Shown: piece by piece, positions 12,451 to 19,681 of the stretch | Layout of the letters: each line of letters opens with the position of its first letter | Position numbering within the stretch: the first letter of the stretch is position 1 | Assembly (NCBI GenBank): GCA_017503735.1 | Contig: JAFVSN010000028.1 | Coordinates: 1-34,375, forward strand | DNA length: 34,375 nt | Reading direction: 5' to 3' | Source of the DNA: Lachnospiraceae bacterium | GTDB taxonomy: Bacteria > Bacillota > Clostridia > Lachnospirales > Lachnospiraceae | The notes under the pieces: model-generated | The model's database searches: none | The model's input: only the letters and a program-made list of their open reading frames with translations | Told to the model about the DNA's origin: nothing | Translations under genes and position numbers: made by a program

Positions 12451-13155
12451 TTATGCCAAATAGCACAGCACGAATAAATAGTGACACAAAGTTCCGCCGA
12501 GGCAGAAACAGTGGAAAATTTCATGCAGGCCGAAATTCGGGTGCTTGTTATCAAAAATCGGAAGCTTAAGGGCGTAAATTACGCCGCCGATGGTGTAAAC
12601 AATGCCGCCGCCTAAAAGTAATGCAAAGGCTCCGGCAGGAATACTGCGAAGAAGTTGCGGAAACGCCAGAATACAACACCAGCCCATGGCGATATAAATC
12701 ACAGCCGATACCCACTTCGGACAATTGATAAAGAACAAGCACTGGAAAATGCCGATAAAAGCGATGCCCCAAACCAAAGCAAACAGAAGCTTACCGGCGG
12801 AACCCTTTAATGCAAGCAGGCAAACCGGAGTATAGGTTCCGGCGATTAAAACATAGATCATCAGGTGATCCAGCTTTTTTAAACGGATAAAGCTTTTGAT
12901 GGTTCTGCCGAAGGTATGGTACAGGGTACTGGCACTGTAAAGTAAAAACATACCCGTAATAAACGTGATACAGGAAAAAAGGGAAAGTCCGGAAGTACCG
13001 GCGGCTTTTTGCAGTAACGGAAAAGCACCGAGAGCGGCAAATACTACGCCGACAAAGTGGGTGTATGCACTGCCCGGCTGTCGCGGAATAATCCTGTGTT
13101 TTGATAAATCAATCGGTTGTTGTAAGGTTAAGTCCTTTGATGTTGTAAGTTCCAT
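12451..13155 (-). CDS. Hemolysin III / PAQR-family membrane protein
   Basis: A seven-transmembrane protein of the hemolysin III (YqfA/PAQR) family; the true bacterial role is poorly defined and haemolysis should not be assumed. Family residues: the opening helix YTHFVGVVFAALGAF, SASTLYHTF, LDHLMIYVLIAGTYTPVCL and the C-terminal FGLHEIFHCFCLGGTLCHY. The separated histidines and Asp form the metal-binding cluster typical of PAQR/alkaline-ceramidase-like hydrolases. I place the start at 13155 (234 residues) because AAAGG lies 9 nt upstream; the in-frame ATG at 13164 overlaps that ribosome binding site. It is convergent with the cellulase gene. Confidence 0.88.
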   Translation of the reverse strand: MELTTSKDLTLQQPIDLSKHRIIPRQPGSAYTHFVGVVFAALGAFPLLQKAAGTSGLSLFSCITFITGMFLLYSASTLYHTFGRTIKSFIRLKKLDHLMIYVLIAGTYTPVCLLALKGSAGKLLFALVWGIAFIGIFQCLFFINCPKWVSAVIYIAMGWCCILAFPQLLRSIPAGAFALLLGGGIVYTIGGVIYALKLPIFDNKHPNFGLHEIFHCFCLGGTLCHYLFVLCYLA

Positions 13156-13477
13156 AAATCCCATCCTTTCTTTGATACGCTGATCGCAGTGATAGTGTGT
13201 GCATTCCTAAAAATGTCATTCATAAGAAGGTTTTACATACAAATATTATGTGCTGTGTTAATTAAAAATATTACATGTGGTTTTTAAAACTACGTTATAT
13301 CTAAGATGATACTATCACATATATTTTTAAAAAGCAAGAGGAGAAACGAAAAAAGATTGGGAAAAAAGACCTAAATTATTTAGAAACGTCGAAAATGCAA
13401 ACAACATGATAAAGCGATAGCATTTTCAAAACTTTTATGATACAATAACCTTATTCTTACTATGATTCGAGGGTATT
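13156..13477. other. AT-rich intergenic region between divergent genes
   Basis: About 320 bp of AT-rich DNA upstream of both the hemolysin III gene (minus) and the DUF3842 gene (plus). A TACAAT at 13441-13446 could be a -10 for the plus-strand gene, without a clear -35. GTGATAGT near 13190 recurs as its reverse complement ACTATCAC near 13311, possibly a coincidence. I see no gene or strongly folded RNA here. Confidence 0.5.
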
Positions 13478-13888
13478 ATGGAAGTTTTAATTATTGACGG
13501 ACAAGGCGGGCAGTTAGGTGCTCAGTTGGTAAAAGAAATTATGGCGGGTTTTGCCGATGTGCAGATTACTGCGGTAGGGACCAATGCAACGGCAACGGCG
13601 ACGATGTTAAAGGCAGGTGCAAAGCAGGCGGCTACGGGAGAAAATCCGGTACTGGTGGCTTGCCGGAGTGCAGATGTGATTATCGGACCCATCGGCATTG
13701 TGATTGCGGATTCCATGTACGGAGAGATTACTCCGAAGATGGCGGTTGCTGTGGGACAGGCAGATGCGACGCGGATTTTGATTCCGATGAACCGATGCGA
13801 AAACGTAGTGGCAGGAATGGAAGATATTACGATGACGGCAATGGTAGAGGATGTGTTAAAAAAACTCGACAAAATACGAAAAAAATGA
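13478..13888 (+). CDS. DUF3842 family protein
   Basis: A 136-residue protein matching the small DUF3842 family found in Clostridia; function unknown. It begins MEVLIIDGQGGQLGAQLV, with a glycine-rich turn (DGQGGQLG, residues 7-14) after a beta strand, as in Rossmann-like nucleotide-binding folds. Later come VITAVGTNATATATMLKAGA-like and SADVIIGPIGIVIADSMYGE segments. It looks soluble and cytoplasmic. GAGGG lies about 7 nt before the ATG. A new promoter begins 13 bp after its stop, so it is probably monocistronic, although no terminator separates it from the next unit. Confidence 0.8.
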   Translation: MEVLIIDGQGGQLGAQLVKEIMAGFADVQITAVGTNATATATMLKAGAKQAATGENPVLVACRSADVIIGPIGIVIADSMYGEITPKMAVAVGQADATRILIPMNRCENVVAGMEDITMTAMVEDVLKKLDKIRKK

Positions 13889-13900
13889 TATGGGATACGG

Positions 13901-13929
13901 TTGAAAGAAAAGATGTGATATGATATACT
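13901..13929 (+). promoter_or_regulatory. Promoter of the ECF S-component leader
   Basis: TTGAAA (13901-13906), a 17-bp spacer, TATACT (13924-13929). The predicted start is about 13936, which is exactly the first base of the first leader hairpin. Confidence 0.75.
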
Positions 13930-13935
13930 GACAGT

Positions 13936-14310
13936 GTTATTCAGAAGGATAACGCCGAGCAGAAGCTCGTACAGTTTATTGGTTTGCTTTTAACAAAGAT
14001 AGTATCGACACTAGGAAGGTGTTATTTTCCCAGAAGGGAAAATGATGCCTTTTCCTTTACGCTATAGGAAATTGCGCATTTCCTATAGCGCAAAAAAACG
14101 CTCCGCTGCGGGTCCACAAGGTCCGGGGGACCTTGGCTCTGGACGGACCGAAACGGAGTGTAGATTGCGCACGCTTTTGCAGAAGAAGGTGTCGCATAGA
14201 TGCGACGCAAAAGCGGCGCGAGAGTTCCGCAAGCGGAACTCTTTGTTCCTTCGGAAATCACATGATTTTCCGTATTTTAAAAGATTCCGCAGAATTTGAT
14301 TGCGGAAAAG
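13936..14310 (+). promoter_or_regulatory. Hairpin-dense leader upstream of the ECF S component
   Basis: About 390 nt of untranslated leader made almost entirely of inverted repeats. In order: GTTATTC-AGAA-GGATAAC (13936-13953); CGAGC-AGAA-GCTCG (13956-13969); ACAC/GTGT (14008-14022); TTTTCCC-AGAA-GGGAAAA (14025-14042); a perfect 13-bp stem (14060-14090); a compound structure at 14099-14160 with core CAAGGTCC-GGG-GGACCTTG; CGCTTTTGC/GCAAAAGCG enclosing GTCGCA/TGCGAC (14172-14215); AGAGTTCCGC-AA-GCGGAACTCT (14221-14242) followed by TTGTTCCTT; CGGAAATCA/TGATTTTCCG (14252-14272); and TTCCGC/GCGGAA (14285-14307). It may be a riboswitch or attenuator, an independent RNA, or an inserted palindromic repeat element. 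It lacks the conserved cores of the TPP, FMN, cobalamin, preQ1 and tetrahydrofolate riboswitches as I know them. Confidence 0.6.
14221..14251 (+). terminator. Possible attenuator/terminator hairpin inside the leader
   Basis: Perfect 10-bp stem AGAGTTCCGC / GCGGAACTCT with an AA loop, followed by TTGTTCCTT. The T-tract is interrupted, so efficiency is uncertain. It sits about 86 bp before the start codon of the S component, where an attenuator would act. Confidence 0.4.
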
Positions 14311-14327: not shown

Positions 14328-14867
14328 ATGAGAAAAAAGAATCCTATATTTACAATGGTATCGGCAGCGATGTTTTTGGCAATCGCTTATGTGTTGCCGT
14401 TTTTTACGGGTCAGATTCCTCAAATCGGTTCCATGCTCTGCCCGATGCATATTCCGGTATTGCTTTGCGGGTTTATTTGCGGTTGGCCATGGGGACTGGC
14501 AGTGGGCTTTTTTGCGCCTTTGTTACGTTCTGTGGTGTTGGGAATGCCACCGTTTTTTCCGACGGCGGTTTGTATGGCATTTGAACTGGCAACCTATGGT
14601 GCAATGACCGGCCTGTTTTACAAATGGTTCCCGAAGAAGAAGGGATTTATTTATGTGTCCCTTTTGGCGGCAATGGCAGTGGGTCGTCTTGTGTGGGGAC
14701 TTGCGATGCTGATTTGTACGGGAATTAAGGGGGGAAGTTTTGGTATTGCGACATTCTGGGCAGGTGCCATAACGAATGCACTTCCGGGCATTGTACTTCA
14801 GATTGTTTTGATTCCGGTTGCTGTGATGTTACTGGAGCGAGCAATGCGTTTTGAAGAGAACCGTTAA
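14328..14867 (+). CDS. ECF-type vitamin transporter S component (substrate unknown)
   Basis: A 179-residue membrane protein with about six hydrophobic helices, matching S components of energy-coupling-factor transporters, which bind a vitamin or precursor and work with the shared EcfA-EcfA'-EcfT module (not in this window). The start ATG at 14328 has AAAAAGGAG 7 nt upstream; an upstream in-frame extension runs through the hairpin leader and is rejected. Features include MRKKNPIFTMVSAAMFLAIA, a long loop with GQIPQIGSMLCPMHIPVLLCG and WPWGLAVGFFAPLLRS. It resembles the pantothenate/folate-type S components by general character, but the ligand cannot be read from sequence. The kinase downstream (26 bp away) suggests import followed by phosphorylation. 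Confidence 0.85.
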   Translation: MRKKNPIFTMVSAAMFLAIAYVLPFFTGQIPQIGSMLCPMHIPVLLCGFICGWPWGLAVGFFAPLLRSVVLGMPPFFPTAVCMAFELATYGAMTGLFYKWFPKKKGFIYVSLLAAMAVGRLVWGLAMLICTGIKGGSFGIATFWAGAITNALPGIVLQIVLIPVAVMLLERAMRFEENR

Positions 14868-14893: not shown

Positions 14894-15952
14894 ATGAAAG
14901 AAGAAATAAAGACGGCGGTAATCGATCATTGGAAGCGATACCCGAAAGCGCAGTTGCAGGATTTATTTAAGTATCTGTATCAAAGTTCTTTCGGATGTGA
15001 GCATTTAATTGCAAGCCCGGAGGCGGTGGAAGGTTATATCAGACAGGAAGCGGAACGGGCACCTTGCACCGGCGGAGAATTTATCGAGTCATTAAACGGG
15101 GCTTATTGCAGAGTGCATTTGGATTGTATCAGGGAGGGACTCTGTGCGGAGACGCTGGCAAAGCTGTTTTTTCTTTCAGCCGGTCATGTGGAGGATGGGA
15201 AAGAACAATTGGAGAAAAGGCTTTCGGTTCTGTTGGAAACGGTGGAAGAGGGATTGCTTCCCTTTGAGACGGAGGCAGTGACCGACGGGATTAGAAGGTG
15301 GCGAGAGGCAGGTTACCCGGCATGTCGTCATTCGGAAACGTTTCGAAAAGAATATGCACCGGCCTATCGTCTGGTAAAAAAAGAGTACGGGGCATTTCTT
15401 CCGTTGTTTTTAACCATTGACCGGATGTTACGGGAAGGACCGGTGAATCTGGCAATCGAGGGAGGGAGCGCATACGGAAAAACCACCCTCGGCAATCTTC
15501 TTGCACAGATATATGATTGCAATGTATTTCATATGGATGACTTTTTCTTACGTCCGGAACAACGTACAAAGGAGCGGTTTGCTGAACCGGGAGGTAATGT
15601 GGACCGGGAACGTTTTCTTACCGAGGTGCTCACACCACTTCATCACGGGGAACCGGTTTCTTACCGGAAATTTGATTGCAGTACATTTACACTGACGGAG
15701 CCGGTTGTGATACAACCGAAGGAACTTAATGTAATAGAGGGCGCTTACAGTATGCATCCGGAACTGGAAGGATATTATAATCTTTCGGTATATTTGGAGG
15801 TTTCTCCGGAATTGCAGAAGCAGCGTATTTTAAAGCGGAACACACCGGAACTGGCAATACGTTTCTTTGAGGAATGGATCCCCATGGAACAGAGGTATTT
15901 TAAGGAATTTAAGGTGAAGGAACGGTGCGATATGGTTTTCTTGTTCGAGTAA
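14894..15952 (+). CDS. Two-domain protein: unknown N-terminal domain fused to a uridine kinase-like P-loop kinase
   Basis: A 352-residue protein. Residues about 1-175 form a mostly helical domain I do not recognise, with conserved-looking QSSFGCEHLI and LNGAYCRVHLD segments. Residues about 180-352 are a P-loop kinase of the uridine kinase/phosphoribulokinase/pantothenate kinase type: Walker A GGSAYGKTT (about 189), Walker B-like NVFHMDDFFLR with the DD that contacts substrate and metal, VIEGAYSMHP, and a lid-region LKRNTPE. Start by AGGGAACAG-type ribosome binding site, weak. It lies 26 bp after the S component, probably in one operon, so the kinase may phosphorylate the imported compound (inference). 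The substrate could be a nucleoside, pantothenate or another vitamin. Confidence 0.75.
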   Translation: MKEEIKTAVIDHWKRYPKAQLQDLFKYLYQSSFGCEHLIASPEAVEGYIRQEAERAPCTGGEFIESLNGAYCRVHLDCIREGLCAETLAKLFFLSAGHVEDGKEQLEKRLSVLLETVEEGLLPFETEAVTDGIRRWREAGYPACRHSETFRKEYAPAYRLVKKEYGAFLPLFLTIDRMLREGPVNLAIEGGSAYGKTTLGNLLAQIYDCNVFHMDDFFLRPEQRTKERFAEPGGNVDRERFLTEVLTPLHHGEPVSYRKFDCSTFTLTEPVVIQPKELNVIEGAYSMHPELEGYYNLSVYLEVSPELQKQRILKRNTPELAIRFFEEWIPMEQRYFKEFKVKERCDMVFLFE

Positions 15953-17161: not shown

Positions 17162-19561
17162 ATGAATATCTATGAACAGTTAAAAAACGAATTAGGGATT
17201 CGTTTGGAGCAGGTAGAGGCTACCGTAAAGTTGATTGATGAGGGCAACACCATTCCGTTTATTGCCCGTTACCGTAAGGAAGTCACCGGTTCGTTAAATG
17301 ACGAAGTACTTCGTAACCTGCACGAACGTTTGGTATATCTTAGAAACTTAGAGGAAAAGAAGGAGCAGGTGCTTGGTAGTATCGAAGAGCAGGGAAAGCT
17401 TACCGAGGAACTCAAGGCACAGATTTTGGCGGCAACGACGTTGGTTGAAGTAGAGGATTTGTATCGTCCGTACCGCCCGAAGAGAAGAACCCGTGCCACC
17501 ATTGCGAAGGAAAAGGGTCTGGAACCTTTGGCAGAGCTTATTTTTACGGAAAGCTTAGACAAGCCGGCAGAGGAAGCAGGCGCAGAGTATGTGAAGGAAG
17601 CAGAGGATGCCGCTCTTTCCGTTAAGACTGCAAAGGAAGCGGTGGAAGGTGCGTTAGATATTATTGCGGAGCAGATTTCCGACGATGCGGAGTATCGTCG
17701 CTATATCCGTGAGATTACCATGGAGGAGGGTAAGATTGTTTCCAATGCCAAGGAAGCAAAGACCCAGTCCGTGTATGAGATGTACTATGAGTTTGAAGAG
17801 CCGCTTAACAAGCTTCCGGGACATCGTATCCTTGCTTTAAACCGTGGCGAGGATGAGAAGATTTTGACTGTGAAGGTCAGTGCACCGGAGGAACGTATTT
17901 TGCAGTTCCTTCGCACGAAACTCATTGTAAAAAAGAACGAGTTTACGGATGATTTGCTTGCGTTTGCGGCAGAGGATGCTTACAATCGTTTGATTGCTCC
18001 GGCTATCGAGCGCGAGATTCGTAATGATTTGACGGAGAAGGCAGAAGACGGTGCCATCAAGGTGTTCGGTAAGAACCTGGTACAGCTTCTTATGCAGCCT
18101 CCGATTGCGGGACAGACGGTTCTCGGTTGGGACCCGGCATTCCGTACCGGTTGTAAGTTGGCGGTAGTGGACCCGACGGGTAAGGTACTGGATACCGTTG
18201 TGATTTACCCGACGGCTCCGCAGAATAAGGTGGAAGAGTCCAAGAAGATTTTAAAGAGACTGATTGAGAAATATAACATTACCCTCATTTCCGTAGGAAA
18301 CGGTACGGCATCCAGAGAATCCGAACTGGTCATCGTAGAGCTTTTAAAAGAATTGAATCAGCCGATTCAGTATGTGATTGTAAACGAGGCAGGTGCTTCT
18401 GTTTATTCCGCAAGTAAGCTGGCTACGGAAGAGTTTCCGAACTTTGATGTGGGACAGCGTAGTGCGGCTTCCATTGCCCGTCGTTTGCAGGACCCGTTGG
18501 CGGAACTTGTTAAGATTGATCCGAAGTCCATCGGTGTAGGGCAGTATCAGCATGATATGAACCAGAAAAAGTTGTCCGAGACCTTATCCGGCGTGGTAGA
18601 GGATTGTGTAAATAAGGTAGGCGTGGATTTAAATACCGCTTCGGCACCGCTCCTTGAGTATGTGTCCGGTATTTCTAAGCCGATTGCGAAGAATATTGTG
18701 GCATATCGTGAGGAAAACGGTAAGTTCAAGACCCGTAAGGAACTTCTTAAGGTGGCAAAGCTGGGACCGAAGGCTTACGAACAGTGTGCGGGCTTCCTTC
18801 GCATCAACGACGGAACCAATCCGTTAGATGCCACCAGCGTGCATCCGGAGTCTTACGAGGCGGCGGAGAAGCTACTTGATAAGCTTGGTTATACCGTAGC
18901 GGACATTAAAAAGGTACAGGCAGAGCAGAAAGAATTACAGGCTCGTGCGGAAAAGGCAACAAAGAAGGACGAAGCTCCGAAGCGCAACCGGGAAAAGGAC
19001 AACCGTCTCCGTGTCAAGGGAGGTAACACCATGATGGCACAGGCTTTGATGGCGGCTATGAGCGGCGGTAACTTTACCGCACCGGCAGAAGATGCCGAGG
19101 TGAAAAAGTCCGGTAAGGGCGGCGATAAGAACGTGGCACAGGATGTGGCATCCGGCAGCGGGTTGTCCGGTCTTTCCCGTCAGATTAAGAATAAGACGGC
19201 TCTGGCAGAGGAGCTTGGTATCGGTGAGATTACCTTGACGGATATTATTAAGGAATTGGAGAAACCGGGACGTGACCCGCGTGAAGAAATGCCGAAGCCG
19301 ATTCTTCGTACCGACGTGCTGGAAATGAAGGATTTGACCGAGGGCATGATTTTAAAGGGTACGGTGCGTAACGTGATCGATTTCGGTGCGTTCGTGGATA
19401 TCGGTGTACATCAGGACGGTCTGGTACACATTTCCCAAATGTCCAAGGAACGTTTCATTAAGCATCCGCTGGATGCTGTGAGCGTTGGTGATGTTGTGGA
19501 TGTTAAGGTCATGAGCGTGGATTTACAGAAGAAGAGAATTCAGCTGACGATGATCTTATAG
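17162..19561 (+). CDS. tex: Tex-family S1 RNA-binding transcription accessory protein
   Basis: A 799-residue Tex/YhgF protein, a nucleic-acid-binding factor related to eukaryotic Spt6. The N-terminal helical Tex domain contains TIPFIARYRKEVTGSLNDE. The YqgF-like RNase-fold domain contains GWDPAFRTGCKLAVVDPTGK (about residue 323). The HhH region VSGISKPIAKNIVAYRE lies near 500. The C-terminal S1 domain (about 722-799) has LKGTVRNVIDFGAFVDIGVH. Between the HhH region and the PGRDPR motif, residues about 590-685 form a lysine/glycine/alanine-rich insertion that makes this copy longer than the usual 715-785 residues as I recall them. AGGAG lies about 8 nt upstream of the start. Confidence 0.95.
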   Translation: MNIYEQLKNELGIRLEQVEATVKLIDEGNTIPFIARYRKEVTGSLNDEVLRNLHERLVYLRNLEEKKEQVLGSIEEQGKLTEELKAQILAATTLVEVEDLYRPYRPKRRTRATIAKEKGLEPLAELIFTESLDKPAEEAGAEYVKEAEDAALSVKTAKEAVEGALDIIAEQISDDAEYRRYIREITMEEGKIVSNAKEAKTQSVYEMYYEFEEPLNKLPGHRILALNRGEDEKILTVKVSAPEERILQFLRTKLIVKKNEFTDDLLAFAAEDAYNRLIAPAIEREIRNDLTEKAEDGAIKVFGKNLVQLLMQPPIAGQTVLGWDPAFRTGCKLAVVDPTGKVLDTVVIYPTAPQNKVEESKKILKRLIEKYNITLISVGNGTASRESELVIVELLKELNQPIQYVIVNEAGASVYSASKLATEEFPNFDVGQRSAASIARRLQDPLAELVKIDPKSIGVGQYQHDMNQKKLSETLSGVVEDCVNKVGVDLNTASAPLLEYVSGISKPIAKNIVAYREENGKFKTRKELLKVAKLGPKAYEQCAGFLRINDGTNPLDATSVHPESYEAAEKLLDKLGYTVADIKKVQAEQKELQARAEKATKKDEAPKRNREKDNRLRVKGGNTMMAQALMAAMSGGNFTAPAEDAEVKKSGKGGDKNVAQDVASGSGLSGLSRQIKNKTALAEELGIGEITLTDIIKELEKPGRDPREEMPKPILRTDVLEMKDLTEGMILKGTVRNVIDFGAFVDIGVHQDGLVHISQMSKERFIKHPLDAVSVGDVVDVKVMSVDLQKKRIQLTMIL

Positions 19562-19617
19562 TAAATGAGGAAGGAGCCATTTTCGATAGAAAATGTGCGG
19601 AATCCGAATGTTAGTAG

Positions 19618-19650
19618 GATTGCGGGAACTGCGAAGCAGTAGAGCAATCC
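19618..19650 (+). repeat. Nested inverted repeat between tex and the esterase
   Basis: GGATTGC (19618-19624) pairs with GCAATCC (19644-19650), enclosing ACTGC-GAA-GCAGT. No T-tract follows on either strand, so it is not a classical terminator; it may be a processing or stability hairpin in a shared transcript. Confidence 0.55.
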
Positions 19651-19681
19651 GGGTGTACCAAAAGGATAAGGAGGAATACAG

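Follow-up and report, generated by a model that had tools for sequence, protein, structure and literature searches.

The window analysed here, a stretch of 34,375 nucleotides from a Lachnospiraceae bacterium (assembly GCA_017503735.1, contig JAFVSN010000028.1), carries on its forward strand a gene for the S component of an ECF transporter (14328–14867), which matches PF12822 with 62.7 bits against a cut-off of 30.7 and which we propose to take up the nickel-pincer nucleotide (NPN) or an NPN precursor. Its upstream neighbor on the same strand (13478–13888) encodes a DUF3842 protein (PF12953, 164 bits), and downstream of it, again on the forward strand, lies a gene (14894–15952) for a two-domain protein made up of an uncharacterised N-terminal domain and a P-loop kinase domain with a distant likeness to uridine kinase and phosphoribulokinase that reaches no curated cut-off. 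DUF3842 homologs are found in 35 of the 68 ortholog S loci (L009–L076) and in 15 of 60 S loci of the class genomes; for the kinase-like protein these numbers are 36 and 38, respectively, and each of its two domains also occurs alone in orthologs. The N-terminal domain (14894–15430, forward strand) matches no family, has conserved residues Asp23, His37, Glu52, Arg73 and His146, and stands alone in L015, L017, L049 and L057. No paper on DUF3842 was found in a literature search with subscription papers and preprints outside its scope.

The S protein resembles ThiT/FolT-type S components in exceeding the PF12822 cut-off and in its weak similarity to the ThiT and FolT families, but differs from them in reaching none of the curated cut-offs set for the named transporter families of NCBIfam and in its genomic links to lar genes. 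Assignment as a thiamine transporter (ThiT) was rejected, with TIGR02357 scoring 21.6 of the required 108.45 bits and PF09515 24.1 of 25.8 bits. Queuosine salvage by a QueK-like kinase was likewise discarded, QueK being described as a nucleoside hydrolase (PMC11130926; also PMC11477304). A Hemolysin-III/PAQR family protein is encoded at 12451–13164 on the reverse strand; this family is listed among the candidates for preQ1/queuine transporters (PMC11130926).

Two unrelated elements between promoter and S gene

The S gene is preceded by a promoter-like site, TTGAAA-17-TATACT (13901–13929, forward strand), with 10 of 12 matches and a TG before the −10 element; chance alone would give 0.6 such sites over this region. 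The 375 nucleotides that follow (13936–14310) fold with −154.7 kcal/mol, compared to −103.7 ± 4.9 kcal/mol for 100 shuffled sequences, none of which equalled it (z −10.4); the first part, 13936–14053, has a z of −5.2 when folded alone. Among the helices are a pair of 17-nucleotide arms, 94% complementary (14056–14072/14078–14094), which include a perfect 13-bp stem (14060–14090), a perfect 10-bp stem (14221–14230/14233–14242), a perfect 9-bp outer stem enclosing an inner hairpin (14172–14180/14207–14215), and a compound helix at about 14099–14160. With the Rfam 15 covariance models, no family reached its gathering score within this segment, and at E values of up to 10, unrelated families gave six matches below threshold, the best with an E value of 0.0014. 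A preliminary description of the locus had reported the inverted repeats, including both perfect stems, the nested stem and the compound helix, together with a promoter upstream, an S-component gene downstream and the lack of a core of the riboswitches usual for S components, and all of this is borne out.

When the segment was used to search its own genome, 61 matching segments were obtained at E ≤ 10 and 41 at E ≤ 1e-4, the former count including the self-match of the query and matches of these palindromes on the opposite strand. The non-self matches start around base 114 of the query (window position 14049), and the first approximately 115 bases returned no second match. At orthologous loci the reverse is seen: the first part (13936–14053) is conserved and the second (14056–14250) is missing. 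In L009 and L010, whose S proteins are 84% and 80% identical to that of the window, respectively, the leader terminator is followed by the start codon within some 20–25 bases; further short hairpins in the window at 14251–14310 (forward strand) are also extra relative to these two loci. The hairpin cluster is thus almost certainly two unrelated objects, a conserved leader and a mobile palindromic repeat, the latter being no part of an RNA switch.

That the whole of 13936–14310 is one large new RNA regulator, as its strong overall folding and its position between promoter and gene might suggest, is hardly credible, since the second part is missing from orthologous leaders and occurs at many unrelated sites, mostly behind terminators; we rejected a single RNA because of the copies elsewhere and the empty sites. 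The preliminary description had likewise taken the hairpins for a single array and had offered three alternatives for it. Two of these are supported, one for either half: 13936–14053 fits a new and probably metabolite-sensing leader with an attenuator, and 14056–14250, with its multiple genomic copies, fits an inserted palindrome-rich mobile repeat. The search for copies elsewhere in the genome that it had recommended returned many copies of 14056–14250. The hairpins it had singled out (14060–14090, 14099–14160, 14172–14215 and 14221–14242) all belong to the mobile repeat; the switch lies in the less conspicuous first 118 bases. The locus shows how a palindromic element behind a regulatory terminator can pass for part of a switch.

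A mobile palindromic repeat behind the terminator

The repeat composite (14056–14250, forward strand) consists of three units. Own-genome copies and their alignment define unit A (14056–14111), a long hairpin with a CGCTCCGC tail, and unit C (14166–14250), a nested stem and a terminal hairpin ending in TTTGTTCC. Unit B, of about 54 bp (14112–14165), lies between them; at L079 and L081, A is joined directly to C. The basic repeat unit is A+C, with a length of about 140 bp (e.g. L079:2608–2748), and unit B, which stands by itself or in tandem copies at L087, L089, L091, L092, L093 and L106, is a separate repeat family. Tandem arrays of unit B, and arrays in which it is mixed with other palindromes, are found at L092, L093 and L106, and inspection by eye reveals changes on both sides of its stems. 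The A-B-C composite occurs at a second locus, L077, with 96% identity over 161 bp.

Repeat matches were present in 20 of the 61 genomes searched, including all ten of the genus (the window's own and nine congeners), and the orthologous leaders in L009, L010, L016 and L034 represent empty sites. One genome, G008, contains many near-identical copies of an A+C variant, as judged by eye (L150–L157), seemingly the result of a recent expansion within this single species. In an alignment of 21 of the 25 long copies (A6), 97.2% of the cells are paired, and the covariation score is 0.337 versus 0.109 in shuffles (0 of 500 as high); the 10 pairs with double changes do not exceed the shuffled alignments (67 of 500). 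By a strict rule, 25 of 35 repeat copies, picked for a preserved 5′ end with truncated copies left out, directly follow a hairpin with a T-run, compared to 35 of 3000 random positions. The copies have a fixed orientation with respect to these terminators. The copy in the window sits behind the leader terminator, so only read-through transcripts would carry it, and it leaves the ribosome-binding site untouched.

In being short, palindromic and non-coding, and in having many intergenic copies and composites, the repeat is like REP/BIME elements, MITEs and other bacterial palindromic repeats; it differs in its fixed orientation immediately behind intrinsic terminators and in that the genome has no Y1 transposase (PF01797), so that an IS200/REP-type partner was rejected. 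The fixed orientation, the covariation of paired positions between copies and the missing transposase could also be taken to mean that the repeats are terminator-associated structured RNAs which arise and spread by recombination and not as mobile DNA. We regard this as rather unlikely: the hierarchical nesting, with B inside A+C and the A-B-C composite found again at L077, and the lineage-specific near-identical copies seen by eye in G008 look like movement. With multiple copies in unrelated contexts and its absence from the orthologous site, we read 14056–14250 as a mobile composite of palindromic repeats that would have inserted immediately after the leader terminator, just as other copies came to lie behind other terminators.

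A probable attenuator with covarying helices in the leader

The leader (all features on the forward strand) begins with two hairpins, P1 (13936–13953, GUUAUUC-AGAA-GGAUAAC) and P2 (13956–13969, CGAGC-AGAA-GCUCG), and continues with hairpin P3 (14007–14023, GACAC-UAGGAAG-GUGUU), a proposed antiterminator, and an intrinsic terminator (14016–14053) whose 5′ arm is common with P3. A simple terminator scan omitted the latter because its T-run is short (4 T). A strict pattern recovered the leader upstream of 31 of the 68 ortholog S genes, and nine additional instances were recognised by eye. In an alignment of 36 sequences, including that of the window, the order is P1 and P2, both with C-WGAA-G loops, a linker of variable length, P3 (of the type GAUAC-UAUGAAG-GUGUC) and a terminator that has the 3′ strand of P3 within its 5′ arm.

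The RNAalifold structure of the 36 leaders comprises 28 pairs, 23 of which show compensatory changes, and 93.3% of the cells are paired, versus 83.0% in shuffles (0 of 500 as high) and 47–59% when the partners are slid; for P1, P2 and P3 together, the values are 92.5% versus 34–52% with slid partners. Changes on both sides are found for 6 of the 7 pairs of P1, all 5 of P2 (97.7% of cells paired), 2 of the 5 of P3 (98.9% of cells paired) and 12 of the 17 terminator pairs. P3 and the terminator share a strand and are therefore mutually exclusive, as computed from the sequence. L321 and L323, both divergent, appear by eye to use the 5′ strand of P3 in the terminator instead, so the exclusion would be kept by a different wiring; P1 is missing in divergent members. 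Thus, 13936–14053 combines a conserved, covarying structure in a 5′ leader with a helix that, by computation, excludes the terminator. It is very likely a regulated attenuator and probably a riboswitch.

The leader shares with terminator-type riboswitches the 5′ position, the conservation of its loop residues and of a covarying structure, a helix exclusive with the terminator, and a location upstream of transport and biosynthesis genes for one cofactor. In contrast to them, it matches no Rfam family, neither here nor at 18 ortholog loci, and its description is computational. Guanidine-II (mini-ykkC) riboswitches have ACGR loops. Like the leader, they have two small stem-loops of similar sequence, which in their case dimerise by loop–loop contact, making the binding pockets (PMC5486947). 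The leader differs from guanidine-II in its WGAA loops, in the third hairpin P3 tied to the terminator, in the associated genes and in the lack of an Rfam match.

Genes downstream of the leader

NPN serves as a nickel cofactor for lactate racemase and for related racemases and epimerases, abundant among gut bacteria. A covariance model of the leader, R1, was run over 391 Clostridia genomes at E ≤ 1e-3 and matched in 21 of them: before S genes in 10, before lar genes in five, before a pair of membrane-protein genes in one, and before neither in five. The lar-type leaders precede larE-larB-larC-cbiM-cbiQ-cbiO (L171/L185), a FecCD-type ABC transporter with larE-larB-larC (L172/L186), a membrane-protein pair with larC (L173/L187), the same pair with larE-larB-larC (L174/L188), and larC (L182/L192). 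At L184, the leader precedes the membrane-protein pair alone. Representative LarB, LarE, LarC and CbiM proteins from these loci score well above the curated cut-offs. The five matches with neither gene (G123, G202, G242, G253 and G408; E 4.5e-5 to 4.8e-4) were taken as chance matches, the flanks that were read showing no S or lar genes; L178 (of S type), L182 and L184, whose E values of 1.7e-4 to 5.9e-4 are as weak as those of the five, were accepted on their hairpins and gene context.

The membrane-protein pair (about 141 and 104 residues; L188:9801–10534 on the reverse strand, L187, L193 and L302) adjoins lar genes or the leader and has no Pfam match; of 40 other LarC loci, five contain it. 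It may constitute a membrane system related to NPN or nickel.

To these loci, R1 later added a sixth of lar type, L302 (E value 4e-6), which lay outside the training set of this model. It is the only one of 40 further LarC loci to have the leader, and most lar operons of the class are therefore not under its control. With a second model, R2, at E ≤ 0.01, 30 of 71 S loci were found to have the leader 0–300 bases ahead of the S gene and the other 41 to lack it, these counts being obtained with a training set that included the window, L175 (G371) and L302. Weaker R2 matches lie at the same distance of 32–91 bases from S. In the window, the leader is farther away from the S gene because the repeat lies between them. 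In one alignment of leaders (A4), 21 of 30 sequences were used, with L075, L321, L318, L323, L014 and four rows with a misplaced P2 left out.

The S gene is itself linked to lar genes. It stands directly before larC in L066 and L070 (2 of 68 loci), the latter with the gene order DUF3842-S-larC-kinase, and directly before larA in L315, L316 and L317 (3 of 60 class-genome loci); larA was found in none of the 68 loci L009–L076. The LarC proteins adjoining S exceed the cut-off, and the two scored LarA proteins of L315–L317, with 621.5 and 624.9 bits against a cut-off of 460, are lactate racemases at equivalog level. A gene for a LarC2 domain alone (L016:1959–2393, forward strand; 151 bits, cut-off 50) is located just upstream of a DUF3842-leader-S-kinase cluster. 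The leader is common to S genes and larE, larB and larC, and S genes lie beside larC or larA; the leader is likely to be a member of an NPN regulon. S-type and lar-type leaders occur within one genus (G271 and G395, respectively).

The operon with CbiM/CbiQ/CbiO-type cobalt/nickel transporter genes next to larEBC (L185) and the FecCD-type ABC transporter with larEBC (L186) would also be expected if the leader sensed nickel ions instead of the cofactor, with lar genes and nickel transporters responding to Ni2+; the S gene would then be carried along because its substrate carries nickel. Metal-binding riboswitches are known, and a possible link to nickel biology is what the leader has in common with the NiCo (czcD) riboswitch. 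The architecture of the NiCo riboswitch is a multi-stem junction; the leader, in contrast, has small separate hairpins and is not matched by the Rfam NiCo family. Moreover, most leader-bearing genes encode vitamin-type S components (10 of the 16 recognised R1 matches; 30 of 71 S loci with R2) and have no adjacent nickel transporters. We consider nickel sensing unlikely.

Sites for proteins commonly take the form of two or three hairpins whose small loops are nearly identical, and the leader might equally be a target recognised by a regulatory RNA-binding protein, perhaps one encoded in the vicinity, and no riboswitch. DUF3842, which is conserved beside both S-type and lar-type leaders, would be an example: its homologs occur in S loci (35 of 68 and 15 of 60) and also precede the leaders of lar type at L172, L174 and L184. 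However, DUF3842 is absent from about half of the S loci, some of them leader-bearing, no RNA-binding domain was recognised in it, and conserved unpaired positions in the flank of P3 and in the loops fit a small-molecule pocket as well. Protein binding seems improbable to us.

Distribution of S, LarA and LarC

We surveyed the 391 genomes with a threshold of E ≤ 1e-10 for S homologs. Of 144 genomes with LarA, 80 have no strong LarC and 64 have LarC. S homologs are present in 68 of the 80 and in 22 of the 64 (Fisher's exact test, 4e-10). S and LarC are thus distributed in a complementary manner, and the association persists when 11 weak LarC matches are counted as LarC (5.6e-8), with majority calls for genera (1e-8) or families (2e-5), in a within-family stratified test (p 8e-4) and with a stricter S threshold of 1e-40 (43 of 80 versus 6 of 64; Fisher 1.6e-8). 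The weak matches to PF01969, the LarC family, have E values of 1e-6 to 1e-27 (G112, G138, G166, G235, G256, G276, G301, G332, G347, G400 and G418), and nine of these 11 genomes belong to a single family (f42) with several S-bearing genomes.

Among 16 leader-bearing genomes, all five of S type with a LarA over the cut-off lack LarC. Yet four LarC-bearing genomes (G208, G292, G333 and G285) also have the leader before S, so that the two roles are not strictly divided; a rule confining S genes with the leader to genomes without LarC was abandoned in view of three exceptions (G208, G292 and G333).

The window's own genome, which is 94.6% complete, has no LarC and no LarA, the latter also with a six-sequence profile. 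It is one of 32 genomes, out of 89 with close S homologs (E ≤ 1e-40), that have neither LarA nor strong LarC, and the LarA profile found no convincing LarA in these 32 (best E 5.7e-4). A 'LarA' match in G422 (23.5 bits) was not counted, the ORF being DUF362-like by eye. About 15% of genomes have been described to possess larB, larE and larC but no larA, and NPN proteins other than LarA have been proposed (PMC11796402). Such proteins would accommodate genomes without LarA, but the proposal does not bear on the present genome in particular.

A possible route for NPN scavenging

Taken together, these data lead us to favor, with some confidence, an NPN-pathway attenuator that controls the import of NPN or of a precursor, the repeat composite behind its terminator being unrelated. 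In the mechanism that we envisage, P1 and P2, capped by WGAA, would form a receptor together with P3, through which RNA polymerase would pause or proceed. If P3 persisted, the terminator would be blocked and the S-component and kinase genes transcribed; if P3 were absent, transcription would stop at 14053. The wiring suggests that a ligand would stabilise one of these two states. Judged from the uptake role, import genes would be on when the cofactor is scarce and repressed when it is abundant. The substrate of the S component may be NPN or one of its late precursors, perhaps taken up in nucleoside form, which the kinase-like protein could then rephosphorylate; the presence of a kinase fits import in this form.

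Direct binding of NPN or a precursor by the leader is a plausible step that we advance with reservation. More tentatively still, the 118-base leader could represent a new riboswitch class binding NPN or its immediate precursor, with the S component and the kinase forming a scavenging route in gut Clostridia unable to make NPN. This reading bears on how LarA genomes without LarB, LarE and LarC obtain NPN. If it is true, the leader would be a ready marker for NPN-related genes and would point to a candidate for the importer; genomes that have S and the leader but lack LarA, the present one among them, should hold an NPN enzyme unrelated to LarA. A literature search, again with subscription papers and preprints outside its scope, found no paper joining the nickel-pincer nucleotide and a riboswitch, and no regulatory RNA for NPN was among the best-ranked titles in broader searches. 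A term search of PMC11770544 and PMC7583248 found no mention of transport.

Elsewhere in the window, two known RNAs are present on the forward strand, a 6S RNA (RF00013, 80.6 bits) at 859–1037 and a Clostridiales-1 RNA, of an sRNA family (RF01699, 54.7 bits), at 19520–19659.
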